This document shows, one piece after another, positions 2,430 through 64,000 of a stretch of DNA of 64,000 bases (within the stretch, counting starts at the first letter, position 1; each line of letters opens with the position of its first letter). The stretch is from Lophium mytilinum. Its lineage: Eukaryota > Ascomycota > Dothideomycetes > Mytilinidiales > Mytilinidiaceae. The stretch spans positions 434,001-498,000 of the forward strand of contig MU004181.1 of the NCBI GenBank assembly GCA_010093605.1, written 5' to 3'. The notes beneath the pieces are model-generated. The model worked only from the letters and a program-made list of their open reading frames with translations. It did not search any database and was not told where the DNA came from. Both the position numbers and the translations under genes were made by a program.

Positions 2430-2745
2430 CGTCAAGACACCTCAAACGGTACGAAGGCGTGATCAAGATCGCAATTATAATCTGCGGGTTCAGATGATGA
2501 TAGCAATGTTGGGTGTTCATTCCATCCACATTGTAGAGCTATCTTTCGATACTTAATTCTCGTTTGGTCAACCTATCAAAAAACCTCATACAGTACGAAT
2601 GCGATATCAAGATCTCAACCATGCCGTGCAGATTCAGATGATAGTGCTTTCAGCTTTAAATTCCAATCAGGTCCATAGGGCTGGTTTCTGACATCCAATC
2701 TTTATCTTTTCCAGCACGTCGAGAGACTTCAGACGGCGCAATTGC
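2430..2745 (-). repeat. Tail-element tandem array, three copies, period about 144 bp
   Basis: Three related blocks start near 2432, 2577 and 2720. On the minus strand each carries the tail core (TACCGTTTGAGGTGTC in the best copy) followed upstream by a TCTGAA-type block. They lie directly 3' of the small minus-strand gene at 3069-3290 and in its sense direction. The copies have diverged and look old. The remaining 2746-3068 shows no gene. Confidence 0.6.
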
Positions 2746-3068
2746 AATATCAATAGCTCAACCACTAAATGCAGATTCACACAGAGCATTCGGCTTTTCA
2801 TTCCAATAACTTCCACCGAGCTTCTACGCAAGCACTACCATAACTCCCAATTCCCGCCTAGCCGCCCACGTTAATCTCTGCCGTTTTTCGCACGCCTATA
2901 AAACAATTAGCTACTAAATCCTACAGTTGAAACAGAATAGGATATTCTTACTGCGTAGGAGAATCAAGCCAGCCCCGCCCCCTAAGCACCCGATGTAGTC
3001 ACTCCGTCTAGACGGTCCACAAGTCAGCGGTTCATTCTTCTCCCAGTGATATCAGGAAGCACATACCT

Positions 3069-3290
3069 TCACATCTCCTGCAACTCCACCTCCTCCCCCT
3101 CGCCCTCTGCAGCCTCTTCTTCCACCCCCCGCCGACCCAGGTTCCGCCACATCTCCCTCACAAACGCGAAAAACGCCGCGAACGCCTCCGGACCGAGCCA
3201 AAGGTACAAAACGGCCACAGCGGCCAGCACGCAGACGACGACGACGCCCTGCACTATGAGGACGACTTGTAGGATGTCGGACCAAGACAT
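3069..3290 (-). CDS. Small single-pass membrane protein, 73 aa, hypothetical
   Basis: A 73-residue protein starting at an ATG in good context (CCAAAATGTC). The first 8 residues are polar. Residues 9-33 form one strongly hydrophobic segment (VVLIVQGVVVVCVLAAVAVL is its core), followed by an FVREMWRNLGRRG basic stretch and a glutamate-rich tail ending VELQEM. This suggests a single-pass membrane protein with the basic side in the cytosol. No family is recognised. A longer in-frame start (3449) exists, but its extra residues are compositionally unlike the rest, so the shorter start was chosen. The gene is followed by its own tail-element array at 2430-2745. A 3' intron changing the C terminus cannot be excluded, because GTATGT follows the stop. 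Confidence 0.45.
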   Translation of the reverse strand: MSWSDILQVVLIVQGVVVVCVLAAVAVLYLWLGPEAFAAFFAFVREMWRNLGRRGVEEEAAEGEGEEVELQEM

Positions 3291-3821
3291 TTTGGTTTGA
3301 TGGTTTAGATTGTGGTATGTGTGGATGTTGAGGATGAGAGGGCTGATTTGCAAACGAGGGCAGGCGGACGATTTTATGGGGTGGTGTTGGGGTGCTACCT
3401 TCACTATTTTGACTTCACTTTGGATTGTGCGCCACTTCGCCAAAGACATGGTGGGAGGGTGAAGATCAGGGTGGTAGTGGAGGGGCTTTGCGCACCGGGT
3501 CCTGGCCTCGAAGTCTTTTGCACCCCTTGATCATGTTGATGGGCAAGAGCCTACACATCAGAGGTCAAGTCCTGTACTGATGGGACTATGATGGCATTGT
3601 GTGAAGTGGCCTGATTGACTTCTACTTTACGAAATGGATGGGAACAGCGGCAGAACTTCAATTGAAAGGGTAGCACAGCAGGCCAAACCCGGATACCAAA
3701 CTCGGATACCAAATTTGCGTGCTGCAGACCCACTCTTACTCTCACCAGTCTCCACTACTTCTTCATCCGTCATGATGTATCCTACAAGCGAACCCGATCA
3801 GCTATACCAGGATATCAACAG

Positions 3822-4661
3822 TCATGTCGCAGTGTCCAGCCAACCGACTATCCTCCATCCTCGGCCAGGGCAGATGCATGTGCCTCCGCAACGGGCATAT
3901 TCTCCTGGCGGTGGGAAGATCAGAAGTTCTGAACATGCTCTCCTTCTACGCCTTCCTGGTTCCCTTGACCTGGAAAGCTTGCCAGATGTTCTTGTGCTTC
4001 TCGAGTGTCTTACTTCCGCCAACGTTGCTGGCCATGCAACGGCTACCTCGCCCGCAGGGTCGAACGCAGTGGCATAGACTCGACAGGTGATAGTACACTC
4101 ATATCTGCCATTCGGCTTGCCCAGTTTGATGAAGCGCTGAGCGGTCCTGCCATCCGTCCCCTTCTGCCATGCATCATGACCAGTGCGAAACAGCTTTGCG
4201 GGTGCGAGAGGGCAGTCTTCATGCGTAGGACGCGGAGGCAGCTGAGGCGACCCCATGCGTGCTCTCTTCCTCGGGCGTGAAGACTTCGTTTCAGCGGTCT
4301 CCATCTGCTTTGCTGTAGGCTTGGAGGTCGAGTCCTGTTGCGAGTGACTTGACGTCGCGTTGTCCGACGGTGTGGGGCTGTTGTGTACGTGGTGTGGTGA
4401 GCGGCGCTCCCGTAGCCGCTGGCTCACCTCCACGGTCCGTTTCGCTGGCATTTCTAAACTCTGAGCCGACGGCGCAGGACAGAGGATCTGTTGTAGTACA
4501 CTGGGTGGCGGGCTGCTCTCCTCGCTGGGGAGGCGGAGGGTCTCGAAGGGGTTGGTACCTTGGCTGGTAGGGCGGAAGGCGGAGAAGCTGAGGTGGAGGG
4601 AGTTGAAAGACCACTCAGAAGACGTGTTGCCGGAGCGGTGGGAGTTGTTCGGGTCGGCCAT
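3822..4661 (-). CDS. Hypothetical protein with disordered N-terminal half
   Basis: A 279-codon open frame from an ATG in strong context (GCCATGGCC). The N-terminal 150 residues are Ser/Pro-rich and low in structure. A basic cluster (SSRPRKRARMGSP) looks like a nuclear localisation signal. It is followed by a better-ordered segment, FRTGHDAWQKGTDGRTAQRF, then IKLGKPNGRYECTITC. The C-terminal frame is doubtful. One nucleotide over, the sequence reads GSKTLEKHKNIWQAFQVKG and stops at 3946, which is more protein-like than the Arg-rich annotated end; a small indel or unseen splice is possible. The paired Cys and the HK nearby could belong to a zinc-binding module, but this is weak. An upstream in-frame ATG at 4844 would add 61 residues. 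No family recognised. Confidence 0.35.
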   Translation of the reverse strand: MADPNNSHRSGNTSSEWSFNSLHLSFSAFRPTSQGTNPFETLRLPSEESSPPPSVLQQILCPAPSAQSLEMPAKRTVEVSQRLRERRSPHHVHNSPTPSDNATSSHSQQDSTSKPTAKQMETAETKSSRPRKRARMGSPQLPPRPTHEDCPLAPAKLFRTGHDAWQKGTDGRTAQRFIKLGKPNGRYECTITCRVYATAFDPAGEVAVAWPATLAEVRHSRSTRTSGKLSRSREPGRRRRRACSELLIFPPPGEYARCGGTCICPGRGWRIVGWLDTAT

Positions 4662-4899
4662 GGCGCATGCGTGCGTCGAGAGGTTGGCAAGATAACGATT
4701 GACGGTGCGGTCGGGTTGAGAGTCTCGCAGCGGTAGGAGCTCGTTGTATGCGTTCAGCGAGGGAACATTCCTCGGTGGGAAGGGGTTGTGATCGATTGAG
4801 CAGGGGGCGGAAATAGTCTCTGCTGGCTGGTCGCGCTCCGACAAGAAAGAGAGAAGGGGAAAATGAGAGATGAACGCGTTCAGTCGTTGCTCGAAGTTG

Positions 4900-8529: not shown

Positions 8530-8720
8530 CATCATGATATGTAACGATACCACTGCTTGGGTTGGCCCCATGTGGTTTCATGGAGCGAGTCAAAGTGTCA
8601 GTATCAACCACTTTTCTCAAAGCCTTATACCTGCATTGAGCCACTCCAGACGCCTGCCTCACATAGTCAAACAGCCGGTAATCACTAAACAAATGTAAGC
8701 TTGCAGAGTGTACATCATGT
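8530..8720 (-). repeat. Dispersed tail element, single copy 3' of the 8.8-9.3 kb gene
   Basis: Read on the minus strand this block contains AGGCGTCTGGAGTGGCTC, near-identical to the core of the array at 9.5-10.1 kb. Further on it has CCAACCCAAGCAGTGGTATC, which matches the CCCCAAGCAGTGGC block of the dispersed elements at 12.4 and 63.4 kb. It lies about 50-240 bp 3' of the minus-strand gene at 8767-9270 and in its sense orientation. Confidence 0.6.
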
Positions 8721-8766: not shown

Positions 8767-9270
8767 CTACCAATAACCCACCCCACCCCTCCTCACCGGA
8801 TCTCCCCTCCACCTATAGTGCCTATTATCCGGCCAATGCACCCTAATCGGGTCCTCTCTCTCCTTCATCCACCGCGCGTGCGCCTCCTCCCTCGCTTTCG
8901 CCTCAATCTCGGCCTCCTATGGTACAAAAGTCAGCATGTCTCACATAAACACTATAATCGAGGAAGATTAGGCGAAACGTACCTTCATCCTCTGCTTCTT
9001 CTCCATGACCAACTTATCTACGGCATACTCCCGGGCCTCCGCGTTGGTGCGGTCGTGCTCCTCGTCGTCCGACGGCGTGAAGGCCGCACCACGCACGCCG
9101 AAGCTGGTGCCGAGCGCGTACGCGATGGTGTGGCGGGTGGCGGCGGGCTCGGGGTGGTGGAGGAGGCGGCGGACGGCACGAGGCGCGGTGGAGAGGGCGG
9201 GGCCGGCAGACGGGGCAGCGGGGCCAGCAGCAGCAGCGGTGTTGGTGGTGTTGGTGGTGTTTTGGGCCAT
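8767..9270 (-). CDS. Two-exon orphan-type protein, 145 aa; paralog of the gene at 20.5 kb
   Basis: Exon 1 is 9270-8983 (96 codons) and exon 2 is 8916-8767 (49 codons plus TAG). The 66-bp intron (8917-8982) starts GTACGT, ends ATAG and is in phase 0. The protein starts MAQNTTNTTNT, has an Ala/Pro-rich low-complexity region to about residue 45, then a conserved block with IAYALGTSFG and DRTNAEAREYAV. Exon 2 is helical and charged (EAEIEAKAREEAHARWMKER) and ends in an Arg/Trp-rich tail with VHWPDNRHYRWRG. The gene at 20,472-21,029 shares the MxQN start, the DRTNAE block, the intron position and phase, and the HWPxNR tail. Function unknown. No signal peptide or membrane segment is seen. Confidence 0.65.
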
Positions 9271-9479: not shown

Positions 9480-10135
9480 GAGGCTGGGATGAATGAGACG
9501 CTGTACACTCCGTAAACCGCGATCATGGTGTACTAACTGACTGTTTGGCAATCTGATACCGGCGTCTGGAGTGTCCTGATGCGGACATGTTTCCGCAAGA
9601 AAAGTAGATGTACGCGAGCTGCGATTTCGAAATGGAGCTCGAGTCGTAACAAACTGAGAAGCTCTACACTCTGTATTTCTAGATCATGGAGTAATGACTT
9701 GTCATTTGGCGATGTGATGCCGGCGTCTGGAGTGGCTCAATGCGGACATAACTCTATAAGAAAGGGAAGTATAGGCGACTTACGATCTCGAGATAGAGCT
9801 TGGGGCGTGAACCAAACTAGATACTCTTCGCCCTGTGTACCGCTATCTTAGTATAATAGAAGACTGTTTGACAATGGAGTGCCAGCGTCTGGAGTAGCTT
9901 AGTGCGTACACAAGTCCATAGGAGAAATAGAGGTAGGCGAGCTGCGATTTTGAGATGGAGCTCTGATTGAAACAAAATAAGACGCTCTTTGCTCCATAAC
10001 CCGATATAATCATTCAGTAACCAGCTGTTTGACAATGTGATCCCGGCATCTGGAGTGTCTCAAGGCGAACATGGTTTCGAGAGAAAAGAGGACGAAGAGG
10101 AGCTGAGATTTGGGACGGATCTTCAATCGTATCAT
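9480..10135 (+). repeat. Tail-element tandem array, four copies, period 161-162 bp
   Basis: The core GGCGTCTGGAGTG (or a one- or two-base variant) recurs at 9561, 9722, 9884 and 10045, that is at 161, 162 and 161 bp. Each unit also carries a GTTTGACAATGTGAT-like block before the core and a GCGAGCTGCGATTT-like block after it. The array is upstream of the minus-strand gene at 8767-9270 and points away from it, so it may be the remnant tail of a lost + strand gene. Confidence 0.75.
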
Positions 10136-12330
10136 ATGGCGCGTTGTTGCAAACATCCGTAGCCCTTCTTGCCATCGTCTGGGGGTCTCCCGTGTAACGA
10201 TAGAAAATTGGCTAAGAGAACGCACTCGCCATCTGTGTACACCAAGCTGACGCTGTCCGAGGTGGCCTCCCGATTTTGCGAGCCTTCCAAAACGCCGAAT
10301 AACTCCCTCAGTGGTCTATTACCGCTTCAGAAAATGCAATTCTCGGGCTCAAGGCACTCCGCGCTCCGGATCGTGGAGTCCAGACTCAACAAATTGGATT
10401 TGATGGGAGTAGCTGCCGTCGTGGGGAGCAGGGGGTGAGGGGTTGAGGGGGCCTCATTGGCCTGAACATTATGCGAAAGGGGCGCATTTCGCTCAACGAT
10501 TTCAAGCCCCTGCAGCAGATCAATAGCCGGACGGCGCGATTTGGCTACTGCCGTGATGATTTCGAGAAGCATAGAGACCAGATCAGGTGAGAATAAATAA
10601 GTGTACGCAGGTACATTTACGACACATTGTGAAATTGAGCATAGATCATTTACACCTTGATGAACTCCTTTTGCCCAATGTGAGCTGACCCGCTCTCAAC
10701 GGCGGTATCAAGCAAGCAACAGTATAGCAAGATCACTGAGATATCCGGGTGCTCCTACGATGCTCGACTCCGTTACTGTCTTCAATCAGGCAGGCGCAGT
10801 ATGGGGCTTGAGATTCAAGTTACGCCGCCGATCGGTGTGGAGTGTTTTGGAAAAGTGACATTCGATTGTGATGTGATTACAAGTCTATTTTGCAGCAACA
10901 GCAACGTCTAACGATACACAGGTCCGACTAGGCATCTCCAGCTTCGAAACAATGCTGAGCATCAATCCCGTCACCGCTTAGTCGAAAGGCTGCCTGAGGA
11001 GCGCAGTTAGTATCTGGCCTTCACGAGATGCTTCCTGAAGTCAAACCTTGGTCGTCTTGGTCATCCATGCACTTTTCCGCGGTGACCGCATTGAGCAACT
11101 AGAGAGCATGGTAGATCCATTCTTGAGCTGCAGGCCATACTGAGGAAGGTAGATGCCGTCGTGCATGCCCAACACATTTAGGTACATCCGCCCTTGTCTC
11201 GGATGTTGGGATCAGCGCCTCGAGCAAGCAAGCCGGCAACAAGTCGAGTAAAGCCAAGACCCGCAGCCAAGGGGAGCATGGTGGATCCATTCTTACGTTG
11301 TAGGTGATACTGAGGGAGGTAGATGCCATCGTGCATATCCGACACATTGAGGATTTCTACGAACGACTCCCCGGTGGCCGCCTTGTCCGCTGGAGCAGCT
11401 TGTCGGTGTTGACGTCCAGACTAATAACCATTGTTGGAGTAGCCAACTTGACTCCTCTGGGTTTGGGCAGCTGCTAAGATACTCCTCATTATGTCTTTCT
11501 CTGTGCCTTGTTCATTCGATTGCTGAGCCAAAAGCTGCATAGCCAACTCGGTCAGTCTAGCCAGCTCGTCATCAACGTATGTGAATCTGCCAGTAGATGG
11601 CAGCAGGCGATGGCTTCCCTAGCTCCAAAAGTATTCGCACCTGAATGGCTGCTCTCGTTGGTTCAGTGGCGGACGTTCAGGCGAGTAGGAGCTGGATGAG
11701 GAGGTGGAGTCGGGACGAACTTCGGTTAGAGGGGTGTAGTCGGCAGAGGAGGGGAAGGCAGAAGAGACGGGGCTGCCACGGCTCCTTTTCGCTAGTCCGA
11801 TCATGTTGCTGCTTGTTGTCCGAGGCGTGGCTACAAGGGTAGCTTCTTGATGATGACGGGCGTTTGGCACCATGTTGCGTGAGTCCCCCTTGAAATGCTC
11901 CTTGTGTCTTTTGAGAAAGGTCAGCTGGCTGAAATTGCAAGGATACTGCATGAGATGGGAACAGTACCCAAGCCACCAACGACGAGGTGTATCCGGAAGA
12001 TGTCCTGGCCACTGCGCTGGAGGCAACGCTGGTGAAGCTGGTGTTGCTGTCGCGAGAGGCTCCCTTTGCTCCAAGGCTCTGTCCTGCTGCCGATGAGACC
12101 GTCATCGACCGCAGATATGATGCGTGGGATTCGTCCTTGCGAGCGCATGCTCGAGAAAAAGTTTGTGAAGGAGAGGATGAGAGATGACCGAGCGCTGTGG
12201 AATGGGATGGTGGTGTGAAGGCGGAGGAATTACCGTTGGGGGAGCGAGAGAGGAGTTCCCCAACGAGGAAGACGGCAGCCACCTTACCCACCTTGGCGAT
12301 AGTAGCCTCGTAAAGTCCTATGTAATAAGT
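10136..12330. other. No gene recognised; lone tail core at 10,682-10,720
   Basis: A minus-strand tail core (TTGCTTGCTTGATACCGCCG then TTGAGAGCGGG) lies at 10,682-10,720 without an identifiable gene. A similar but weaker TTGCTTGCTCGA block is on the minus strand near 11,215-11,240. Minus-strand open frames at 11,619-12,291 include a segment, PCNFSQLTFLKRHKEH, that faintly resembles a zinc-finger helix, but frames change and no convincing gene model results. Confidence 0.35.
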
Positions 12331-12515
12331 CTACCTGGGTAGGCACATGGACTCGCTACTGACACCACTGTCGGGAGTAGCCTGGCTGCTGATTAGCCAG
12401 TCAGTCAAAAGGCAGTTCAAACTGAAGTGCTTGAACCTCGACACCGTGCTTGGATCGTCGAAATCCAGTTGGGGTACCCCAAGCAGTGGCGAACCAGTGT
12501 ACCTAGATATATGCA
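12331..12515 (+). mobile_element. Dispersed tail element copy (about 185 bp)
   Basis: It contains in order GGACTCGCTAC, the core GACACCACTGTCGGGAGTAG, the block CAGTCAGTCAAAAGGCAGTT, and GGTACCCCAAGCAGTGGCG. The same blocks occur in the same order at 63.2-63.4 kb and, inverted, at 55.6-55.85 kb. Compared with 63.2 kb it lacks about 24 bp between CGCTAC and the core. No coding potential is seen, which suggests a non-autonomous element. Confidence 0.7.
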
Positions 12516-17700: not shown

Positions 17701-17707
17701 GCAATCT

Positions 17708-17979: not shown

Positions 17980-19060
17980 CATTGATTGGCTCAGCTTGTC
18001 TGGGTGGTTGAAGAAGAAATGCCTTCTATCCTTGGGCGGTGGTCTATGTGTGGACCCAATTGCGGAAATGATACATTACGAATCAGCTTACCTTTTAGCT
18101 GAAGGTATACCGACTAGCTGGGGTCCTCTGTACAGCAGTGTTGCGACGGCAAAAGTGGGACTTGTGCAGAAGGACAACCGCTCACTTGACCCCAAACAAC
18201 AGAAAACCAGCCTCACAGTTACCGCGCTCTGTATTAGGTTACCATTGGGCGGGCTAAGTACCTACTAGCTGGGGCCTTTCTGACAACGGTGTCAAGCAAG
18301 CAAAGACGGAATCAATGCGGCGGAATACCCATGACAAGAGTCTTGAAGTATAGGAAGCCGACAGCAAGAGTGGCGCGCTTGAAATTAGGTTAACTTTTGG
18401 CCTATGAACTACTTCCTGGCTGGGGTCCTCCGTACGATGGCGTCACGCTTGCAAGCCTGGAACCTGGCAACAAGAAAACCCGTGTGCTGGAACTGGAAGC
18501 TTAGAGAAGTAACGGTACAATGGAGACGGTAGAAGTTGGGCTACCTTTTGATCGATCGAATACATGCAACGCGGGGGCTTACTGACGGTGGCATCGCGAA
18601 ACTAAGACACTAACCAGTGCGGTAGCATTTCCGTGTCCTGGAATTTGAAGCCTGAGAGCCTAGTCTCAAGGAAACGCAGCGAAGATTTGGGTTACCCTTT
18701 CACTGATTGAAAACCTGCCACATGAGCCACTCCCGACGGTGGTGTCGCTCGGGCAAGAGTGGAAGCTCTACGGCAGTATTTCCGCAACCCGAAATCTGAA
18801 GCAAAAAAATCCAACCACAAGGTGATAGAGCGGGAATTGGGTTACTCTTTGACTGATTGAATGCCTTCCATAGGGGCTGCTCCTGGCGGTGGTATCGATC
18901 GAGCAAAACGGGAAGCTCTGCGGAGGCATATCCGTGTCCCGAAGTATGAAGCTTACGAACCTGACCTGAAAACGATGCAGAGGAAATTGGGCTACCTTTT
19001 GACTGATTGAACACCTGTCCCCTGAGCCACTCCCCACGGTGGTGACGAGCGAGCAAGAAC
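17980..19060 (-). repeat. Tail-element tandem array, seven copies, period 150 bp
   Basis: The core recurs near 18,121, 18,271, 18,421, 18,571, 18,721, 18,871 and 19,021. On the minus strand the best copies read CTTGCTCGCTCGTCACCACC then GTGGGGAGTGGCTCAGG, followed by CAATCAGTCAAAAGGTAGCC. The last block is the same as GTCAAAAGGCAG in the dispersed elements at 12.4 and 63.3 kb. The array lies directly 3' of, and in the sense of, the minus-strand gene at 19,268-19,719. Confidence 0.8.
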
Positions 19061-19267
19061 CAAGCTAATGCGGGGGCATATCCGTATACCCATACCTATG
19101 ACCCAGTACTACGTAGCCTTGATAACAGGCAAAGGACGTGTTCTCTTTCGCACAATGGGTACATCACTGGTCAATGCAAGAAGAGTAAGTCAGAGCACCA
19201 CGAACAGGATTGCAATTGGTAACATTATAGAAAGTTGGGTCCCCCCTTCCCCCTCCTCTCTCTCCCT

Positions 19268-21059: not shown

Positions 21060-22910
21060 CACTGTGCTGCTTGTCGGCTGATACCGTTTGAAGTGCCCTA
21101 CCTTGATGTTGTAATGCAGGTCGAGAGTGATTTGACAGGCCATCAATATACAGGGTTGAAGTCTTCACATCTGAAAGATGAACGTGGAGGACCATGTTGA
21201 ACGAATACCCGCGGAGCTGAGTGCAGGAGATAGGTCTCCTGCATATCACTTGACACTGCTTGAGGTGCCCTGACCTGATGTTGTGACGCAGGATCAAGGT
21301 GATTTGACGGATCATCAATATCCGGGGTTGAAGTCTTCACATCTGCAAGATGAAGGGGTGAAACCGCGATGAGTTAACACCCGCGGAAAGGAGTGCAAAA
21401 AACGACGATGTTGGAGTCGGCTTAACGGTGTTTGAGGTCCCCTGCATTGAAGTTGTGATGGTGGTTCTGTGTGATCTGACGGGTCGGTAATATGCAGAGT
21501 CGATGTTTCACATCTGCAAAGTAAGACTACAGAAACACCGCCTGAACCCGTTTGTGGTGTCACAACTCACGATTTTGAGGACGTGTGATGCAGTTTTGTC
21601 AAGTTCTCAAGCTGGAACGCCTGAAGTCTTGACATTCTTATCCCGATCCCACACCCAAGAGCCCACTCCTAGCTCCCAGAATGATCGCTCCCGCGCTGTC
21701 AAATCCGAGAGAGAACCGTGCCGCGTACTGGTGGGATGCAGTTTCGGCACCAGTTCATCGTCGCGACATCCGCGAGCGAGCGCTGGCCGAAGCCGCGAGA
21801 GATTTGGGGTATGCTACAGTGGAAAAGATCAAGGAAAAGTCCTTCGCCGGAGTGGATACCCATTTAAGGCCGGGAATGGTTTCCAGGGCAATCATCAACG
21901 AATGGCTATGCTTGTCGTCCAGCTTTTGAGGGCCACGCCAGACGTCGGACCTCAGGGAACGGATTTGCCAACGCTGGTGGAATCGAACGCACAACATGAC
22001 CATGTTGAATAGCACTCGACACTGTTTAAGGTGCCCTGGCTTGACGTTGCGAAGCTCGACAAGACTGCTTCGACAAGCCCTCAAATCGGAGGTTGGATGT
22101 TTGGATTTCGGAAGGGAAGCGTATGCGAGCCCACGGAGTAGACACAGCTATAATTGAACGCAAGACATGGCCATGCTGCATGGTATTTGATACTGTCTGT
22201 GATGTCATGCTCGATGACCGAAACTAGATAGGATAGTTCTAGCAGGCTCTCAGATCTACAGAGCTGAAGTTGTGACATCGGCGATGAACGTATGAAATCA
22301 CGTCGATGATGGAGTACCGTCGGGTTTGCATTGAAGCGTTGACTATACTGCCTAGCACTTAACACTATTTGTGTTGCCATGAGCTAAGAATGGTTTTTAG
22401 ACAGGATTGCTTTGGTAGGTGCTCAAACGTACGGGGCTGAGCTCTCGATATCTAAGCTTAACTTACAAAATTGCGGCGTTGATCCAGCACCGTCGTGTTT
22501 GAATGAAAAAGGTGAATTTGTTGCATAGCACTTGACGCCGTCTGTGGTGCTCTGGCTAGAGGATTGAATACGGATAGGATTGTTTTGAAGGGGTCTCAGA
22601 GTAAACGTATGACAAAGGAAGAGCGTCAGTATTGAATACCATAGACTACTATGCTGCGCATTCCTTCGTGCTGTCTGTGGTGGCTTGACGTGAGATTGTG
22701 AAACGAACCAGATCTAAAGTATTGACTCTTGAAACAAGAAATCCTATCACCTGCGGCATATCTACTAATCTCGGCAACATTTGTGGTGGCCTGAGTCGTT
22801 AATTCAAATTGAAATCAGATGTCAAAGCTTCGACTCTGTATATTGAAGACACAATCGAAAGCATCAACCGGATTGATGTCGGCGGCGTCAGTGGTGGCTC
22901 AACAGGTCTT
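21060..22910 (+). repeat. Tail-element tandem array, about ten decayed copies, period about 170 bp
   Basis: Cores in + orientation can be read near 21,080, 21,251, 21,424, 21,549, 22,018, 22,188, 22,357, 22,532, 22,667, 22,773 and 22,876. The first three read GATACCGTTTGAAGTGCCC, GACACTGCTTGAGGTGCCC and CGGTGTTTGAGGTCCCC. Spacing is 167-175 bp for most of the array and about 105-135 bp near its 3' end. The array starts about 30 bp after the stop of the gene at 20,472-21,029 and is in its sense orientation. A non-repeat insert at about 21,570-22,000 interrupts it. Confidence 0.7.
21681..21929 (+). CDS. Short open frame inside the tail array, 82 aa, doubtful
   Basis: An ATG-initiated frame encodes a balanced, helix-rich sequence with HRRDIRERALAEAARDLGYA, then TVEKIKEKSFAGVD and VSRAIINEWLCLSSSF. 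It sits in the only part of the 21.1-22.9 kb array that lacks repeat cores, so it may be an inserted gene fragment. No splice signals or family support it. Confidence 0.28.
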   Translation: MIAPALSNPRENRAAYWWDAVSAPVHRRDIRERALAEAARDLGYATVEKIKEKSFAGVDTHLRPGMVSRAIINEWLCLSSSF

Positions 22911-25979: not shown

Positions 25980-26435
25980 CTTGGTACCGTTTGAGGTGTC
26001 CCAACAGGCTAATTTGAAAATGGTAGCATGTTAGGTTCTGGAGCATTGAGATCAGCATACAAGTAATTCGTTCGTCTTCTAGATGCATAGCACTGTAAGG
26101 AGTGGACTGCTGTAGGAAACACCGTTGCAGTGGTTGATCTGTTCTAAAGCATGGAGATGAGCACACACAATCCAACTTGTTTTCCGGTTGCGTAGCACTG
26201 TAGGGAGTGGACTGACGTAGAAACAATTGTTGCAGTGGATGTCTTGTTCCAGAGGACGGAGATTAGCGATGGCCTTTCAAGAGCCTATTGTCGCGGGGGT
26301 GATACTGCACAGAGTAGCTCAACACATTCATCCACAGCCTGAGAGAACGAGGTCAGCGAATGACCGCGAATCAGAGCTGAGGTCTCACCGTTGGCGTACA
26401 TGCTAGATGATACCGCTTGAAGTGGTCTACGGGTG
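25980..26435 (+). repeat. Tail-element tandem array, five copies, period about 105 bp
   Basis: Cores lie near 25,985 (GGTACCGTTTGAGGTGTCCC), 26,089 (GCACTGTAAGGAGTGGACTG), 26,197 (GCACTGTAGGGAGTGGACTG), 26,301 (GATACTGCACAGAGTAGCTC) and 26,408 (GATACCGCTTGAAGTGGTC). The spacings are 104, 108, 104 and 107 bp. The array is about 210 bp 3' of the gene at 25,427-25,769 and in its sense direction. Confidence 0.7.
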
Positions 26436-27050
26436 CAAGACAGACCCGAGGCGTATACAATTGGCGGTGAGGTGTAGGTCATAGACCTGGAATCTCCTAA
26501 TGTTTGGTATACGATAGTCCTGTCTGAGTTGGCCTGGGGGGTCCAGTAAAAAAGTAGCAAAGTAATTGGCGCATACCTTTCCCGCAGGCTCGAAATCAGC
26601 CTATCGCTGATTCATTTTTTTCGCCCTTCAAAACCTATATAGGAGCTTCTCAACTCGGTATCAACACGGCCAAAAACCACTACACCGGGCTCCGAACCCC
26701 AACCATCCAAAGTAATCACCGAAGGAACTATCACCTAGGGCTTTCCCTTATGCATCAGAATGGAGGTTGACGGGCGCTGAATCGGAGGAGTCGGTGGCCG
26801 CAGCTCGCAATCGGAGGATGAGGGAAGGGAGGACAGCGAGGTGTGATGTAGGCAGCACCATCTTGACATCGCGGTGAACATCCCCTTGAATCGGCCAGGG
26901 AAGCCAGGAAGCCGCACGACACCTGCCAGCGGGTTAGTAAAGGTGATCAGATCTGGGGTGCCCGGCAAGGAAGCTCTCACATCTCCAGCGCTCTCAAAAC
27001 CACCTTTGCCGCAGCACAACTCCGGCGTATTGCCCTCGGCATCGCGCTCC

Positions 27051-38985: not shown

Positions 38986-39009
38986 ATCGACCATAGCACC
39001 TAGAAACAA

Positions 39010-42114: not shown

Positions 42115-42273
42115 AGGCGGGAATGAGAACAAGGGTTGAGTACACTAATGCAGATTTTGAAAGGTCGTTGGGCCACCTCAGATGATGTCAGATAGCTATA
42201 GCAAGGCTCGATTTGGCAGAACCTAGATTTGAAGCGTGGAGATCATGACATTGAGCGAGGAGTTTTTTGACAA

Positions 42274-42305
42274 GACGAGACCCCTCCAACGGTGTTATAG
42301 GCTGG
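42274..42305 (-). repeat. Tail-element core 3' of the 42.4-43.3 kb gene
   Basis: On the minus strand the block reads CCTATAACACCGTTGGAGGG then GTCTCGTC. It lies about 135 bp beyond the stop of the minus-strand gene and in its sense orientation. Confidence 0.5.
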
Positions 42306-47009: not shown

Positions 47010-47080
47010 CTTTGCTCGCTCGACGTCGCTGTGAGGAGTATCCTGGCTAGCAGAAACCGATGTAGACAAAACGTAGTCTA
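47010..47080 (+). repeat. Tail-element copy 3' of the 45.5-kb gene
   Basis: TTTGCTCGCTCGACGTCGCT then GTGAGGAGTATCCTGGCTAG occurs at about 47,011-47,050. It is followed by GATGTAGACAAAACGTAGTC, equivalent to the GTCAAAAGGCAG block of other copies. Sense orientation, about 200 bp after the final TGA of the gene. Confidence 0.65.
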
Positions 47081-49651: not shown

Positions 49652-50362
49652 TCTGGCAAAGCAGAAGCTGTGCTTTCAGCTACGTGCGGTGCGGTAGGGT
49701 GAGTAGGCTGTCAAGCGGCCTGTGGTAGGCTTGGATGCTGGGAGGGGGTTTTCACTGCCTGGATATGGCTATGCCGGAGACGCTAATGGTTCCGTATCCC
49801 TGCGCGCACGGCATGTTCGCTGGAAATCTGATGTTGCCGGCGGATTGATACTGGCTTATGGCGATCGCTCCCTTTCTGGCTGCTGCAACTTACCTCACGT
49901 TCTGAGGCTATGGATAAGCGGCTTGGTTCTGATAGATTGTTCGTGAAATGAAGATGCTAGACTAGGCTCGGCGATGCTTTATTTTGCTTCAAACACATAA
50001 CACTCGTTGGCTCTCATTGCGAGATTAAAGTAGTAACCAAAACATGACAATGCGGAATCGCCCTTATGAATTTACTGTGAGGATATATACCACTGCTCTG
50101 TTTTCGCTATTGCTCGTTCGATACCACCGTGAGGGGTCTCCTGGGTAGTGTTCCTATGTTCAGTCAAAAGGTTGTGTTATTTCCCTTGTGATGACCTTAC
50201 ATTATCTATGAAGTTTCCAACACCGCCTGAGCTGCCACAAGCCGCTGCGGTATGATGAGCGGCTCACGTCAACCTGTAAATCTTCCCCACTCGAAAAACT
50301 TTCCGCCGACACAGCCTACGACGAGCCCCCCGTCTTCCCCCTTCCGCTACCCTGCACCCACG
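49652..50362. other. Intergenic; tail-element copy at 50,105-50,190
   Basis: GCTATTGCTCGTTCGATACC then ACCGTGAGGGGTCTCCTGGG lies at about 50,105-50,148. GTTCAGTCAAAAGGTTGTGT follows at about 50,158-50,180. This is one of the best single copies of the tail element, in the sense orientation of the 47.8-49.65 kb gene and about 455 bp after its last TAG. No other feature is seen. Confidence 0.65.
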
Positions 50363-53163: not shown

Positions 53164-54318
53164 GGTGGGGTCTGAGGGCAGATTGAGGGCTTCCAAGGAA
53201 AGAGAGAAAGCTTGAGAGGAAAAAGGGGTATTCTCGAGGCGTGTAAAAGCTTCTTGGGAAGTTGTAATAGTAATAATCGACCTGGGTGGACGTGATAAGA
53301 GGCTGAGGTGGATAGAAAAGGTTCTTTTTGTTTCACAGAGGGGTCCATAGCGCACAAATCCGTGAGCCTTAACATTGCGTTTCTGCAGCTACAATGTCAC
53401 CCACACGGCTACCCACACGGCTCAGGTACTGCTTTGGAAACTAGATGCCATTGTCAAAAGTGTCTCTTGTAGTCACGTAGCTGACATGTCAAAACGATGT
53501 CTGATTCGATGTCTGATTCTCAAGGCATCAGCTTCTACACGTCATGAAGACAAGGCAGGCCTTCAAAAGGCTCCCTTGTACTCGCTCGAACAGTATTCTT
53601 CTCACTCAATACCACCGCCAGGGGCGGCCTAACCAGGAGGTTGAGATTCAAGCAAGACGAATTCAGACTCTCATTGCGTGACTAAGTTCGTTGCGATATC
53701 CCCTGCGATGGCAGGAAATTCAGGTCCGATGGTAGAATATTTCCATTGATACCGAGTGCAGCGTCCATCCGAAGGCACATATATATTTCCATGAGCCCCC
53801 AACAATGAAAATCATGCCCTCATAGACTTGATAAATCATATGCTACTGATGAAGAACACACAGCTGCAACCTTTAATGAAAAAGCATAGAATGCTCTCGG
53901 GAAAGGTATCCTACGAATGACTCGGCCCTCTACTCTACCCTTCTTTCTCTCCCTTCAGCTTGCAGCTGTGCTTGATAATCTTTGATACCTACGTACCATC
54001 GTTCGAGTTTCGCCGAAATATCCCATCTGAATGCCAAAACACGAACACCGCTGCAGAGCTGACATTCGCCACCGGTTTGCTAGACGCTTCATTCCAGTGG
54101 TCTCTTACATAATGGAGGAGGGTATCAAGCGCGAATAGCATTACATCCTACCATCGAGGTGGTTCAGGAGCATTGTAGTCTCTTTTCACAACAACATCAC
54201 TGCTTGAGGTACGTCAGCCGTCCCGAACACTCCGAGCTAATCTATCTTGCCCGTCCGCAGAAATTGACCTACGTGCTGAATACTCGAACAGCTAATCCAT
54301 ATACAATTTTTCGCTTCC
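53164..54318. other. Intergenic; tail-element core at 53,580-53,640
   Basis: CTCGCTCGAACAGTATTC then CTCAATACCACCGCCAGGGG and CGGCCTAACC form a tail core in the sense orientation of the 51.7-kb gene, about 420 bp after its stop. The rest shows no gene. Confidence 0.6.
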
Positions 54319-55506: not shown

Positions 55507-55569
55507 ATGCTTTATCTGGCTAGAAAACGTTAATTAGAAGGTTCGAGAACGTCTACATACCTTGAAACT

Positions 55570-55605
55570 CTGCACGTCACCGTGGAGTGCCAGCCTACCT
55601 TGTGT
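55570..55605 (+). repeat. Tail-element core 3' of the 54.5-kb gene
   Basis: CTCTGCACGTCACCGTGGAG then TGCCAGCCTACC is a shortened core in + orientation, about 65 bp after the stop. Confidence 0.45.
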
Positions 55606-55638
55606 CAGTGCAGATGCCTCGATGACATGGTATACAGT

Positions 55639-55848
55639 GACAGGCCACAAGTCTGGGCACACTGGTACGCCATTGCTTGGAGGCCCCCGCAGGACTTCGA
55701 AGACTCAAGGGCAATGTCAAGCTTTAGGCTGTACATATTAGACTGCCTTTTGACTCACTGCCTGCTCAATAGCCAAGCCACCCCCAACAGTGGTGTTGTG
55801 TGGGCAAGTTCGAGCCGAGTCCGTGTGCCCAGCTTGTGGCCTAGGACT
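55639..55848 (-). mobile_element. Dispersed tail element, about 210 bp, with inverted ends
   Basis: Its ends GACAGGCCACAAGTCTGGGC at 55,639 and GTGTGCCCAGCTTGTGGCCT near 55,823 are inverted relative to each other. On the minus strand the interior reads, in order, the core AACACCACTGTTGGGGGTGG, GAGTCAAAAGGCAGTCTAAT, CTTCGAAGTCCTG and CCAAGCAATGGC. The same order occurs at 12.3 and 63.2 kb. It has no coding capacity. It lies about 350 bp 3' of the minus-strand gene at 56,194-57,838, in that gene's sense orientation. Confidence 0.7.
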
Positions 55849-56193
55849 GTAGCAAGCAAACATCGGGTGTAGGTATGCAACCTGTTTGCTCAATAATTGG
55901 GGTACAGGTTGCTCACAGTTCTGATAAAGAAGGTAAATCAACGGCAACTGAATCATATGCTGAATAAGTTGGCATAACTTAATGCCCACTTGGGATGTAA
56001 GCTCTGGTTTCTCTAGGCTAGATTGTCAGACCAGCGAGCCTCGCCGTATCATTACTAGGGTTAGAAAGCATGCAAGTAGGAAACCCCATTTCAGTCTATC
56101 TACTACCTGGACCCAGTGCCTCCGCGATTAGGTGTCCCCCGCCCATATCTTTCTTACCGCTTCCTGACATATATACTACACGTGCGTCCTAAT

Positions 56194-57859: not shown

Positions 57860-59480
57860 GGAGGCGATGTTCGAGTTCTGGCGTCGATGGTGTAAGATTT
57901 AGTGTTTCAATTCTGTCCGGGTCCGGAGTTTTTGACAGCGTCCGTGCTCATCGTGATCCCAGACGGGTGCAAAGCGTACGTAAGCAATGGGAAAGTCATA
58001 CATTGATAATACATACAGCTGTATATAGCCCTAGTCTACCGACGCGGCTGCATTTTCATTAGCCTGTTAAGCCAGCGATACAATGCGCCTGAAAGTAGCT
58101 CAAAAGGCAACCAACTCTAAGGTCACATGCCTATATGTTTACAGCCGTTGATGAGCAACATGATTTTACCATTCAGTCTACTACGTGGCTCGGATCTTCG
58201 CGCTGTCGGCAAATCGAGCTCCACGACTTTCAAACTTCTAAGTCTGCTTTACCAGCACGCAGAACCCTCGTCTTTGCACCGCAATGGCAACAAATCTACA
58301 CGCTGCAGTCTCAAGCGATCTATAAGCTCAAGGCGGGGAGGCGAGTTTTGGTCATCCGCCTTTAGACAACAAGACTTTCTAACTCGGCACAGGGCCAGAC
58401 GGATACGTCTCCTAGGGACAAATTCGATCTTACAAACCTCTCCGCGACGGATCCTTCACTCGCGCCCCACGCTGAGATCGCGCTGGAACCAATGCTACCT
58501 AGTCTGAACAGCTCGGATGTCCAACGTGGCGAAAAGAAGCCCAAATACTTGGAGAAGGTTGGTAGGCTAGGTAGTCACATTATGAACTCTCTTCAATGCG
58601 AATTCCTACGTAATACCTTCGGCTTCAGAATCTCCTCAACTGTGGTATTGGTTTGATGACCGTTATGTAGATCTTGGGCTCCCCTGATCTTTCGTTCTCA
58701 TATGGGCGCATGATGTACTTTCTTGAGGGTGTGAATAAGAATAAGTAAGCTGAGATTTCTTTGATACATTTGAGACATCCCAAACCATTTCAATTCCTCT
58801 CATCCAATCTTAAGCGTTCATGGCCATGATTCGGCACAGCGGTGTGACTCTTTTGCATAACTACTTGGAAGTCTCCCAGCAGACTCGTCGCCGTCCCTGG
58901 CTGAATACTCATTTAATAACAGTTCAAATCTTACCAAATAGGTTGTTGATTAGGAAAGACCCTTTTCGGTTTGAGACAACTTAGGCAGCATTTGTCAGGT
59001 AGAAAAAAGGCGCGTATCCGCGCATCTCCAAGTCATACTTCAAATGTGACATTCCATCTCACATCCAAAGATCCCTACAGGGCACCTCTGACAGTGCTAG
59101 TGGGGCGAAAAGGTTCGTGGTTCAACAAATTGATATCCAGCACCTTGAGCTTCCATTCTCACTTTGGAACCGGATAGAATAATTCAATATCTATTGAGGT
59201 AGGCCAAACAACACCGAAAATCTGGAAAACAAGTTGATCAGGAGTGCTCCAAAACAGTTTCCACCTTCATGAATTTGAATACGTCATAGTTCAGTACGGA
59301 CTTGAGTAGATTTGTACCCCGATGGGCACTCTTCGGATCCTGCGCGCAGCAATAGTGAAGATGCAAAAAGGTGAAGTTACAGGCCCGTGCGTCTCTTTTC
59401 TCTACTATGTCAGCTCGAAAGCGTCATGTCTATCTTCTTTCCTTGTCCGAAAGTCCTCATCATCCTCCTACGCATTGCTC
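57860..59480. other. Intergenic, no gene recognised
   Basis: The + frame at 58,127-58,504 (126 codons) and shorter frames have no domains or splice signals. The region contains the promoter of the minus-strand gene at 57,838 and the upstream side of the 59.5-kb gene. Confidence 0.4.
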
Positions 59481-59528: not shown

Positions 59529-59918
59529 ATGTCCACAAACAACCACGCCGACGATCACGAAGACCCCGCCGAGCAGCCGGCCGAGCATGATGCGGAGGCG
59601 CAAGTGGGACTTCTGTACCAACTCGACCCCCCCGAGGCCACCAGCATGGAGGAAGCCTGGGTCTGGAACGACCATTGGTGCAAAGAGGAGACAGAGACGC
59701 AGGCAAAGATGCACAAGTACTACCAGAAGTACAAGATGGGTACGTTCTCCTGCATTGTGTGGCCCTAATCTCACGTAATTGACGTTTTTGTAGAAAACGA
59801 GCTCGCGAAGGTCCGCATGGAGTACCTCGCCCCCGGCCCCTCCACATCAGCCCCAACTGAGACACGTTGGTGGCGTCGCGTGTTCGGCCTCAAGGGGTAC
59901 CAGCGCCTGGCCGACTGA
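59529..59918 (+). CDS. Two-exon orphan-type acidic protein, 111 aa
   Basis: Exon 1 is 59,529-59,739 (70 codons plus one base) and exon 2 is 59,794-59,918. The 54-bp intron is GTACGT to TGTAG; phase 1, giving a Glu at the junction. The protein starts MSTNNHADDHEDPAEQPAEH, has an acidic N-terminal half with LDPPEATSMEEAWVWNDHW, then KMHKYYQKYKMENELAKVRM. It ends in a basic aromatic part, ETRWWRRVFGLKGYQRLAD. No signal peptide or membrane segment. The layout (acidic leader, one intron, helix, Trp/Arg-rich tail) resembles the 9- and 20.5-kb proteins, but no direct sequence match is evident. Tail array follows 3'. Confidence 0.6.
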
Positions 59919-60174: not shown

Positions 60175-60551
60175 TGCTCTGGATCTGTGATTGCGACATT
60201 AATGGTATATGAATTTCCATCTGCTTGCCGCCGTCTGAGTTGTACCTTGACCGGGTTCAAATCCAGATTTCAATGTCAAATTTCCAAAGGTACAACCTAG
60301 ACAACCGTCATTTACTATTCTAGATCCGTGATGGTGACATTGAGGATGTATGATTTTCCCTCGGCATACCGCCGTCTGAGGTGTACTTTCCTCCGATTAA
60401 AATGTAGATATCAATGTCCAATACCCAAACGTCAAAATTAGAAAACTGCCATTACCCTGCTCCAGGTCTGCGATCTTGACATTAATGATGTACGATTTTC
60501 CTTCGGTATACCACCGTCTGAGGTGTACCTCCCCAGGATGCAGACCGAGAT
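60175..60551 (+). repeat. Tail-element tandem array, three copies, period about 140 bp
   Basis: Cores GCCGCCGTCTGAGTTGTACC (60,227), TACCGCCGTCTGAGGTGTAC (60,367) and TACCACCGTCTGAGGTGTAC (60,508) are spaced about 138-141 bp. Each is preceded by a GACATTRAxGxTRTATGA-like block and followed by an ATATCAATGTC-like block. The array is in the sense orientation of the gene at 59,529-59,918. The third unit abuts the stop codon of the opposite-strand F-box-like gene. Confidence 0.75.
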
Positions 60552-61316
60552 TTAGATCCTCTGCGCTCCAGCATCCTTAAGCCCTTGAGTAAAGTCTTCC
60601 TTGAGCCTGCCAATTTCCTCATCAATAACCTCGTCCGGTGCTTCCATACTCCAATAGCGTACGTTCAACTCAGAGCAAGTCGCGAGAAAATGAAACACCT
60701 TGACAAGATCCACTTCCTCCGGAGCCCCAAGACGTAGAACGGTTTTAGGATCCTGGAGACTGCCCGGCTTTTCCAGGAGCTTTCGACAGTTTTTCAGAAC
60801 TCTCTTCATAGCATCAGCACCCATCTCATGCAGTCTGTTGCGTACCCACGCTTCCGGCATGCCCTCATACATCTGTAAAAAGTGTCGATGAACATAAATC
60901 TTGGGACAAAGCTCTAGCACGGCAAGATCTTCCATTTCCCGGACCAAATCCCACGTATGCATGAGATGCTGAGCTTTCCCCTTGGGTATACCCATCCTCA
61001 GATATCGGATGCTGTTGAACATGTCCGGCCGAAGCCTCCGAAGAAAGACATTCATGGCCATGGAGCTCCGAAAATAGAATGTATTCTTCCTGTAGAATTC
61101 CTCTCCAATGACACGGCGTAGTCTCTTGTTGATCCCGAGCAGAGATGGAAGATTTTCAAGTGACGATTTGCTTTCCTTAGGCCACATGTCCTCGTTCAAA
61201 GTCCACGGGCCTTTCGGCGAGTTGACTTTGATCTCTTTGTTGAAGACTATCAGATCGCTGGATATGGGAAGCAAAAGCTCATCCGGGAGCTTCATTAGCC
61301 CCTTGTTGATGCACAT
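60552..61316 (-). CDS. F-box-like family protein, 254 aa, single exon
   Basis: A single-exon frame. The second ATG (residue 8, MKLPDELLLPISSDLIVF) is the more likely start, by comparison with the 62-kb gene, which starts four residues before its own F-box-like helix. The signature RVIGEEFYRKNTFYFRSSMA is followed by FNSIRYLRMGIPKGKAQ, the strand that follows it in the family. Helical blocks with AVLELCPKIYVHRHFLQMYE and LKNCRKLLEKPGSLQDPKTV come after. No RING exon is found upstream. The last codons and the TAA fall at the end of the third repeat unit of the 60-kb tail array, so the present stop may have been set by that repeat. Role by analogy: substrate adaptor; not shown. Confidence 0.72.
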   Translation of the reverse strand: MCINKGLMKLPDELLLPISSDLIVFNKEIKVNSPKGPWTLNEDMWPKESKSSLENLPSLLGINKRLRRVIGEEFYRKNTFYFRSSMAMNVFLRRLRPDMFNSIRYLRMGIPKGKAQHLMHTWDLVREMEDLAVLELCPKIYVHRHFLQMYEGMPEAWVRNRLHEMGADAMKRVLKNCRKLLEKPGSLQDPKTVLRLGAPEEVDLVKVFHFLATCSELNVRYWSMEAPDEVIDEEIGRLKEDFTQGLKDAGAQRI

Positions 61317-61985
61317 TTGGCGAATTTAGGGGTGTTTGAGGGGATCGTCGCGTAGTTATATCTTGATGGAGGCACCGGATTGCTTTACTTCGCATTAGAA
61401 TCTTCTGGCTCTAGAAGCAAACCCCATAGCTTTCTAGAAAGAGAGTTCGTGTTTGGCAATCATAGGTTAGAGAATACTTCTGCAAAGAACCGGACACTAC
61501 TGCACTTGGGCATGTGTCTGGGCACACGAGCATCACCTTTGAAAGCTAGACGTCACTGTAAGGAGTATCCCGAATACTAGTCGGATAGCCCGGCAAAGGC
61601 ACAGTCGAATAGTAGCCCTATTACCATTATGTAGACTCGACATCGTATTTGGAATTCAAGAAGTCAGTCGGGACGCCCCAAGCAGATGTATCTAGTGCCG
61701 CATCTTGCGATATGGTATAACCATGATATTCTTCCTCTTATTTTAACATTCAAGTAGCTACTATGTGCATAGCCGCCGCGACTGCCATATAAAAAATCTC
61801 TTTTAAGTAGGCGGCTCAGGATCTCCCCAGATCAGTCCAGAAAGCGGGCCTCGCTCTGATCTGCGTTATCGAGATATTCTAGAAGGCCAATGCTAGTTCG
61901 CGGGCCCACCGAAAAGAAGCTATGCCTCAAACAAATACGAGCCAACACTAGTCAAGCTGTACGGTAGGCATCTCCACCCTAACCC
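61317..61985. other. Divergent intergenic region with a tail-like core at about 61,540-61,575
   Basis: GGGCACACGAGCATCACC, then GACGTCACTGTAAGGAGTAT and CCCGAATAC resembles the tail element including its GGGCAC end motif. It sits between two divergently transcribed F-box-like genes, so it does not fit the rule of a 3' location. No gene is seen. Confidence 0.45.
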
Positions 61986-62765: not shown

Positions 62766-62870
62766 GTTCTACAGGATGCTCTACGCTTCGTTAGTGTTTT
62801 GTAGTAAAGCGTTCATGATGGAATTACTTGCGAATTGAGAATTAAAATGACTGGACATAGATGTAAATGC

Positions 62871-62902
62871 CAGATATACTGCGCGGGAGTGCCTCCATAC
62901 TC
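62871..62902 (+). repeat. Tail-element core 3' of the 62-kb gene
   Basis: CAGATATACTGCGCGGGAGT then GCCTCCATACTC matches the core (GAYAC...GGGAGTGCC) in the sense orientation of the gene, 106 bp after its stop. Confidence 0.45.
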
Positions 62903-63073
62903 ACTCTGCGTCTCGTGAATCATCCTGATCCTGATAGGGCTACGCTAAGGGCGGAGCATCTCCCGGTGGGCATTCACTCAACAGCTCAAGCTACAGTTTT
63001 GTCCACCTAGCATGCCGTCAAAGCAAAACACCTGCTCCTTACAACTACCATCACTCTGACCCTCGTCATCCAA

Positions 63074-64000
63074 ATGGCGCACGACCAACAGAACGAGCAG
63101 GCTGCGTGGTTCGCCATTGCAGCAGTGCACCAGCAGACCGGCGCACATGCCCAAGCTCAGCTGCAAAGGATGCAACAAGTGGGGTTGCTGGAGAGTCTTG
63201 AGGTACGTTGAACTTTACCTCTACATTCCTAGGCCATAAATCTGGGCACTTGGACTCGCTACAGCCGGGCTCCAACTTGCTCATTTGACACCACTGTTGG
63301 GAGTAGCCTGGCTACTGAGTAGCCAATCCGTCAAAAGGCAGTCCAATGTGAAGTGCTTGAGCCTCGACACAGCCCTCGGATCTTCGAAGTCCTGATGGGG
63401 TACCCCAAGCAGTGGCGATCCAGTTTCAGCCCAATACCTATGCTTACCAGGTTTAGGCGGTTCTATACTTCGAGTCACCAACACAGATGATTGACCAACT
63501 GCGTTCGACGTCCGATCAATACCTTCAATGCGTCCGCAATATCTTCGTCGACAGATGGGATGAGCTTCTGGCTAGGGATGGCAAACGCAGAGCATTCTAC
63601 TTGACCCTTCTCCGCCTCTCGAACCTCAAGAACGTGTTCTTCATCGCCCTCACACCCCCCGCTCAGGAATACCTCGATTCACTCTTGCTGCAAAGAAATC
63701 CGCCTGCATGGGAACACCTGTCCTTCTTCACCGGTTACAATCGTACACGAATTAGGGCACTGGGCCGAGACGTCGAGAGGTCGTACAAAGGTAGCCTCCA
63801 CGACCCAGCCAACTTCAGGCTGGAGCCCTTCTGGAAGTACCGTCTGGCTGTCGACTGGATTCCACAGAGCGACCGCCATCCTCTCACCGACTGGCACAAT
63901 CAATGGACCACTGAGCATTCTCCTCGGCTCACGCAGTTGGTGAAGCAGTGGACGCAGGAAATTGAGATGAAGTGGATTCAGACCTTTCGGACGCTTCAGG
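63074..64000 (+). CDS. Partial gene, unknown family; runs off the right edge
   Basis: Exon 1 is 63,074-63,202 (43 codons, MAHDQQNEQAAWFAIAAVHQ start). It is joined to an exon from 63,487 that stays open to the window end (171 codons). The intron is 284 bp (GTACGT to ACAG, phase 0), long for this window, because a dispersed tail element of about 220 bp sits inside it. Exon 2 begins MIDQLRSTSDQYLQCVRNIF, then LLRLSNLKNVFFIALTPPAQ, a leucine-rich strand-helix pattern, and ends in a Trp-rich helical region (LTDWHNQWTTEHSPRLTQLV). An alternative is that exon 2's ATG is the true start. The F-box signature is not present in the visible part. No family recognised. Confidence 0.55.
63222..63445 (+). 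mobile_element. Dispersed tail element inside an intron
   Basis: It starts CCTAGGCCATAAATCTGGGC, the same end motif as the 55.6-kb copy. Inside are ACTTGCTCATTTGACACCAC, TGTTGGGAGTAGCCTGGCTA, CCGTCAAAAGGCAGTCCAAT, CTTCGAAGTCCTG and GGTACCCCAAGCAGTGGCG. The right end is worn. Sense orientation relative to the host gene, and removed with the intron if the splice model is right. Confidence 0.7.

Follow-up and report, generated by a model that had tools for sequence, protein, structure and literature searches.

Why should one short sequence motif lie behind so many genes, and on the strand of the gene that it follows? The question is raised by 64,000 nucleotides of the ascomycete Lophium mytilinum (contig MU004181.1, positions 434,001 to 498,000; hereafter the window), where an earlier note had aligned a dispersed core and reported it 3' of 13 genes, always in the sense direction; either an element inserting at 3' ends or a 3'-end RNA signal turned repetitive was suggested there. 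We find that the core is a 20-bp site with a consensus close to RACACCGTCTGAGGTGGCCY, the conserved centre of a repeat superfamily in the genome. It occurs in three forms, namely a 227-bp miniature inverted-repeat transposable element (MITE), inverted-pair elements and tandem same-strand arrays. The orientation of the arrays is tied to the direction of the upstream gene, with exceptions; this does not hold for all clusters of cores taken together.

Recognisable copies of the motif number many hundreds and, by extrapolation, thousands. If one mismatch is tolerated, GAYACCRYYGT matches the window 34 times where 10.3 matches are expected, and GGRGTGNCCTGG matches it 9 times where 2.7 are expected, which places the aligned core above chance. 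Across the genome (43.18 Mb in 24 contigs) the 20-base core with at most two mismatches has 434 matches, 193 forward and 241 reverse, whereas the reversed pattern has 11 (4 and 7). A profile built from the sites returned 194 matches (193 once merged) in the 264 kb formed by the window and 20 ten-kb loci selected by similarity to the MITE, against a single match in the reversed sequence at the identical threshold; 58 of these cores lie in the window. Positions within the core vary mainly between A and G or between C and T. The two-mismatch pattern is satisfied by 13 of the 193 profile matches, and scaling the 434 matches by this ratio would give about 6,000 cores genome-wide. Taking instead the 95 cores found in 192 kb of the loci once their central MITE is set aside would give about 20,000, a figure that rests on loci chosen near repeats.

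Settings of the core and orientation of the arrays

The 227-bp form has the features of a Tc1/mariner-type MITE, namely terminal inverted repeats and a TA target duplication. The aligned copies have the inverted ends CAGT..AGGCCACAAGTCTGGGCACA in common, and both terminal inverted repeats are present in 20 elements, from 18 of the 20 ten-kb loci. TA stands on both sides in 14 of the 20 and on one side in five of the remaining six, and 12 of the 20 are exactly 227 bp long. One MITE end has 181 matches in the genome and none in the control. Relative to neighbouring genes, 13 elements have the same orientation, six the opposite and one has no neighbour, which is no clear bias; the 20 versus 17 flanking gene ends within 1.5 kb likewise give no clear preference for 3' ends. 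None of ten copies of the DDE_1 transposase lies near a MITE end, among the roughly 100 of the 181 ends listed; other transposase families were not searched. One of the ten copies has an open frame and nine are interrupted; in eight of these the only stops are TAG and TAA, as repeat-induced point mutation would be expected to leave.

The inverted-pair element consists of a core followed 92-95 bp on by an inverted copy, and was seen in 10 of 20 one-kb loci taken around strong core matches. An iterated search begun with one MITE copy reaches the units of the array at 18-19 kb in the window, and four diverged units of another array (locus L026) carry the left end of the MITE; hence the forms are related. 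The earlier note had pooled the three settings, and its core is the interior of the MITE. Of its 13 gene-linked sites, 11 hold a core at a score of at least 9 (2.4, 8.65, 18.1-19.0, 42.3, 55.8, 21.1, 26.0, 47.0, 50.1, 53.6 and 60.2 kb), and those at 55.58 and 62.9 kb do not; at two of the 11 the strand is ambiguous, the core belonging to an inverted pair (8549+/8657-) at 8.65 kb and to a MITE at 55.8 kb.

Arrays of a single orientation are found in the window at 2.4, 9.6, 18-19, 21-23, 26 and 60 kb, and elsewhere in L014, L016, L026, L051, L052, L056 and L058. In the sequence examined they hold from 2 to about 18 units beside genes, and some extend for 2-3 kb (window 21-23 kb, L016, L056). In one type the unit is 108 bp long and also carries another conserved block, GATGTCAAA, which begins about 40 bases past the start of CCGT; this two-block pattern has 23 matches in the genome, in 13 arrays, and none in the control. 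In each of 15 arrays or array parts compared, the core exceeds the remainder of the unit in conservation. A second comparison used 13 contiguous stretches drawn from 12 arrays, with units set by the period without gaps, which lessens but does not remove the bias of selecting on the core; here the core falls among the best-conserved quarter of 20-bp windows in all 13 and is the top window in seven.

Several simple accounts of the arrays were tried. Coding repeats were rejected, as units of, for example, 161/162, 151 and 172 bp do not comprise whole codons. Divergence driven mainly by repeat-induced point mutation was rejected too, with 1431 transitions against 1209 transversions between adjacent units and mixed indices. 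Adjacent units often become less alike with distance from the gene, though some arrays do not show this, and we do not claim that gene-proximal units are younger. In L051 an Argonaute (Piwi) gene at 1388-2401 (minus strand) precedes an array of 108-bp units in which neighbouring units close to the gene share 86% and 96% identity. A sense array in L026 follows a 684-codon frame (2804-4855, minus strand) that has no Pfam match and in which internal coding repeats can be seen by eye.

An automatic gene caller was applied to the window and the 20 ten-kb loci, which together hold 42 unpaired clusters; 19 of these had the strand of the upstream gene, 19 the opposite strand and four had no upstream neighbour. 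The coding model, trained on 40 open reading frames (55 kb), is noisy, and the caller was wrong about at least one gene, the minus gene that ends at 19268 before the array at 18-19 kb. With the genes read by hand, the unpaired window arrays of at least two cores were seven same and two opposite (p = 0.18; the cores at 53.4-54.4 kb are merged in this tally). Given the all-cluster tally (19 to 19) and the MITE tally (13 to 6), the arrays were therefore tested separately on flanks picked before any gene search, chosen by us from pattern matches and not at random.

A first set of 13 flanks, upstream of arrays located with gapped patterns and clustered matches, had a gene on the strand of the array in eight (L049, L050, L051, L052, L054, L057, L058, L059) and on the opposite strand in L053 and L061; no gene was visible in L056 and L060, and L055 was muddled. 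A second pattern led to 13 arrays, four of them already known, and six of the nine new ones were examined, giving five on the same strand (L062, L063, L064, L065, L067) and none visible in L066. The 19 flanks together hold 13 same, two opposite, one muddled and three without a gene (13 of 15, two-sided p = 0.007). In L055 a gene of the MFS family on the strand of the array ends about 1.6 kb off; counted as same, it brings the result to 14 of 16 (p = 0.004). Inverted pairs occur within the arrays of L059 and L061 and, by the printed letters, probably also of L053 and L054; two of these four obey the orientation rule and two break it, and the other eleven obey.

In the eight clear cases of the first set the first core lies 153-582 nt past the stop codon, and where an upstream gene is visible the arrays mostly begin from tens to about 600 bp past the stop in the direction of the gene. 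Of the 15 flanks whose gene is clear, 13 have the tandem array behind the stop codon. In the ten-kb loci, arrays of at least two cores are on the same strand in L014, L016 and L026 and on the opposite strand in L013, L022 and, at 3.3 kb, L014. All arrays of at least two cores combined give 23 same and seven opposite (p = 0.005). Single cores are excluded from this tally, as are a weak L015 cluster whose cores (scores 10-11) stand 285 bp from one another and a two-core cluster in L057 (178/338) whose upstream gene lies outside the flank.

Pfam backs the strand of the upstream gene in six clear same-strand cases, namely an MmgE/PrpD gene (L050), a Piwi gene (L051), a WD40 gene (L054, best model THOC3, under its cut-off in each exon piece), a histidine kinase with HATPase and response-regulator matches (L059), a PAP2 gene (L064) and an AAA_11/AAA_12 helicase (L014, outside the picked flanks). 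The remaining same-strand genes have no Pfam match and were called by the codon model or the open frame. Three exceptions are Pfam-backed as well: a FAD-binding monooxygenase points away from the array in L053, the array of L013 lies between two RING genes on the strand opposite to both, and that of L022 lies 5' of a DnaJ gene. The gene families upstream are unrelated, and therefore the joint duplication of a gene with its array, which would hand down one ancestral orientation, is contradicted as a general cause; some genes of the window are paralogous, which would fit such a history, but we hold it to be very improbable.

Might there be no true orientation rule at all, the pattern having arisen from a randomly spread repeat, selective reading of genes and a small sample? 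The even split of the 42 clusters would fit this, as would the arrays that break the rule, among them that of L013 and antisense cores in L055. The result in the gene-blind flanks does not fit it, and six of the clear same-strand genes, five of them in the picked flanks, were identified by Pfam and not by the codon model. We regard this explanation as unlikely. The claim of a sense link at gene 3' ends thus stands largely for the tandem arrays, where it is repeated on other contigs, whose flanks make most of the case, and behind several genes of known family. It does not hold over all clusters taken together, and the MITE has no clear bias. "Always sense" was too strong, since the array at 9.56-10.25 kb and the cores 59098-/59215- break the rule within the window itself.

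Possible roles of the conserved site

A sense orientation soon after the stop codon is what one would expect of an RNA element of the 3' untranslated region (3'UTR) that is transcribed in sense and controls mRNA stability or localisation. A parallel exists in the SIDER elements, of which SIDER2 is described as lying mostly in 3'UTRs (PMC2323293). The RNA evidence, however, is negative throughout. At gathering score the window contains no Rfam match, and 13 loci gave three chance-level ones (E up to 3). Folding of 35 108-bp units gave no signal, with a mean z of -0.5 in sense and -0.7 in antisense against single-base shuffles. A hairpin formed by the core dyad CACY...RGTG was rejected, as positions 5 and 12 vary independently, with no covariation. 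With all three results negative we rejected a structured RNA or snoRNA (covariation was examined in the core dyad and not with a full model), and the suggestion of the earlier note that the core is a 3'-end RNA signal is left without support. Arrays 2-3 kb long, and the presence of the site in inverted pairs and in the MITE, also tell against a 3'UTR element, which we consider improbable, if slightly less so than the absence of any rule. ARAGORN finds no tRNA in the window. An R-loop terminator was rejected as well, the inconsistent GC skew (positive in only 11 of 18 arrays, two exception arrays being left out) arguing against it.

That no RNA structure is supported points to the DNA level, and we infer a sequence-specific protein bound to the site and a function where transcription ends. 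The spacing of the cores gives a hint in the same direction. Spacings that recur in at least two arrays (65, 98, 108, 129, 151, 161 and 173 bp) come close to multiples of 10.76 bp, which is what proteins bound along a single face of the helix would be expected to produce. When arrays are counted singly, the phasing reaches R = 0.68 at 10.65 bp, and none of 4000 jittered sets is as good. The arrays found by pattern have spacings of 65-66, 85-87, 97-98, 107-108, 119, 128-131, 136, 142, 151-153 and 161 bp, of which 136 and 142 fit such multiples poorly.

We therefore propose, at a probability of roughly 0.3, that the conserved site is a protein-bound DNA site set in polar arrays at gene ends, perhaps as a roadblock to transcription. 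A sequence-specific protein would bind the 20-bp site, and the polar arrays would act on the DNA where transcription ends; their most likely role would be that of a directional roadblock, halting read-through polymerase or opposing replication forks. Such a roadblock would explain the position, the polarity and the conserved site together. Stalling at the barrier may favour local tandem duplication, and fork stalling would then explain how arrays form and grow at gene ends with the bound site alone kept intact. A bolder version, in which polar barriers operate genome-wide, with one protein on helically phased sites downstream of many protein-coding genes that ends read-through or blocks forks and drives array growth, seems to us a good deal more doubtful.

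The main rival, to which we give about equal odds, is that the arrays are selfish repeats without a host function. The site would then be what an amplification or transposition machinery recognises, and only units that keep it would multiply; the machinery would prefer gene 3' ends and enter in one orientation, and local unequal exchange would build the arrays. Some retroelements do enter in an oriented manner at tRNA genes. A clearly mobile form exists, in the 20 two-ended elements and the 181 end matches (none in the control), and the array unit is homologous to the interior of the MITE, as the iterated search and the left ends in L026 indicate. Yet the MITE itself has neither a clear 3'-end preference (20 versus 17) nor an orientation bias (13 versus 6), and its autonomous partner was not found, with 0 of 10 DDE_1 copies near the ends listed.

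Several observations weigh against the roadblock proposal. All clusters together are unbiased, and exceptions to the rule are found at 9.56 and 59.1 kb in the window and in L013, L022, L014 (at 3.3 kb), L053 and L061. Behind the MFS gene of L055 there are two antisense cores, about 215 and 395 nt away from it and 180 bp from each other; with this pair included the combined tally becomes 23 to 8 (p = 0.011). Finding units by their cores somewhat inflates the conservation of the core. When the 19 distinct spacings are used, the periodicity is not significant with a free period (88% of jittered sets do equally well) and is marginal at a fixed 10.5 bp (p = 0.045).

Oriented arrays at gene ends hint at a direction-dependent signal and not at random junk DNA. 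Tandem repeats and MITEs are usually described without their direction relative to genes. Arrays mostly anchored in sense at gene 3' ends, with one short conserved site in decaying surroundings, may offer a handle on how eukaryotic genes end transcription, on the birth of satellites inside gene-rich DNA, and on how a host may take over a site carried by a transposon.

Features of the window

The first array (2453..2740, minus strand) has cores at 2740, 2597 and 2453 with a period of 143-144 bp and lies 3' of a minus small gene ending at 3069, a frame of 73 amino acids (3069..3290) whose status as a gene is inferred from the frame. The inverted pair 8549+/8657- (8549..8657, strand ambiguous) lies 3' of a minus small gene (9270 to about 8770). 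On the other side of that gene, 5' of it, stands the first orientation exception, an array of six plus-strand cores at 9558..10249 with spacings of 161, 162, 161, 129 and 78 bp. Seven units of about 150 bp (18079..19061, minus strand) follow the minus gene ending at 19268. A decaying plus-strand array at 21080..22900, its first units 172 bp long, begins 51 nt past the stop of the plus small gene 20472-21029, and six plus-strand cores 105-108 bp apart (25983..26536) lie 214 nt past the stop of a plus gene ending at 25769.

Further on, two minus-strand cores 107 bp apart (42189..42296) lie 142 nt past the stop of the minus frame 42438-43328. Single plus-strand units at 47012..47080 and 50110..50174 are 3' of the plus 46-kb gene and of a plus gene at 48.6-49.6 kb, respectively. 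The plus-strand cores 53447 and 53611 (53447..53680) are 3' of a plus gene ending at 53163 and are followed by weak cores at 54196 and 54357. The second exception, two minus-strand cores 117 bp apart (59098..59215), is 5' of the plus 59.53-kb gene, which is itself followed by a plus-strand array of three units of 141-142 bp (60178..60560), its first core 309 nt past the stop of this gene (59529-59918).

The MITE family has several members in the window. One of 215 bp (55635..55849, minus strand; core pair 55669+/55794-) has CAGT...ACTG inverted ends and TA on both sides, as read from the sequence. Copies that had been left unassigned at 12.4 and 61.5 kb, together with one at 63.3 kb, are MITE relatives: a plus-strand member at 12361..12513 (core pair 12364+/12490-) has terminal repeats that are not clear and, as a query, at least 43 genome matches; a degenerate plus-strand relative spans 61539..61700 (61552+/61689-); and a plus-strand member at 63222..63440 (63290+/63416-) sits within an apparent intron between coding exons of a gene starting near 63075. 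Cores beyond those listed before were found at 3593+, 20231-, 36466-, 40202+, 47216-, 54196+ and 54357+, several of them weak.

The introns, the Piwi and RING genes and the layout of the genes suggest an ascomycete. The small orphan genes 8986-9270 (minus) and 20472-20822 (plus) resemble paralogues (34% identity over 67 amino acids, with a DRTNAE stretch in common), and core copies lie behind both. A family of diverged genes occupies 48635-57450; two members are 25% identical, some have by eye a cysteine-rich, RING-like upstream stretch, and Pfam gave no match in the one member scanned. At 29232-29982 lies a separate repeat cluster, with TTTTGTTGAGTCTTTATACTTCGAC repeated directly in 85-bp copies (93%) and with inverted arms of 41 nt that are 100% complementary. 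Four copies of a dispersed motif around ATCGACCATAGCACCTAGA lie at 37430-39215, and an inverted repeat at 24090-24200 has 46-nt arms, 83% complementary, with 19 nt between them.

Comparison with known systems

The string CCGTCTGAGGTGG was not found in the open-access literature searched, and titles and abstract openings in that literature did not describe arrays set in sense at the ends of fungal genes. The closest systems each share a part of the picture. The 227-bp form is like Tc1/mariner-type MITEs in its inverted ends from CAGT, its mostly TA flanks and a length too short for a transposase; it is, however, only one form of the superfamily, and most tandem arrays lack such ends.

Reb1 or TTF1 sites act as directional roadblocks downstream of rRNA genes, and sites of this type are repeated behind the ribosomal DNA (rDNA). 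Like these terminators and fork barriers (Reb1, the TTF1 'Sal box'), the sites described here are short and oriented downstream of transcribed genes; unlike them, they follow protein-coding genes, and the protein that would bind them is putative. We know of no Reb1/TTF1-type site that the core sequence resembles. An attempt to locate the rRNA genes with one short large-subunit (LSU) pattern gave 0 genome matches. TTF1 is described as acting both in transcription termination and in polar fork arrest (PMC11358750).

Nematode satellites are described in which divergent tandem units have a short conserved motif in common that resembles the CENP-B box (PMC3694981). The divergent units here also keep one motif, in 13 of 13 stretches from 12 arrays, but the arrays are short, dispersed, gene-adjacent and mostly oriented with the gene. 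Long heterochromatic or centromeric arrays of the satellite type were not met in the sequence examined, and no search for long arrays was made elsewhere. The SIDERs of Leishmania are described as short and degenerate, with a conserved signature, and SIDER2 as lying mainly in 3'UTRs (PMC2323293); our elements share with them abundance, degeneracy, a short conserved signature and a place at gene 3' ends. Those described are retroposons of about 550 bp with an A-rich end that act through RNA, whereas the arrays here are tandem and no RNA structure is supported. Collectively, the arrays resemble conserved-box satellites and, by position, SIDERs, and match neither fully.

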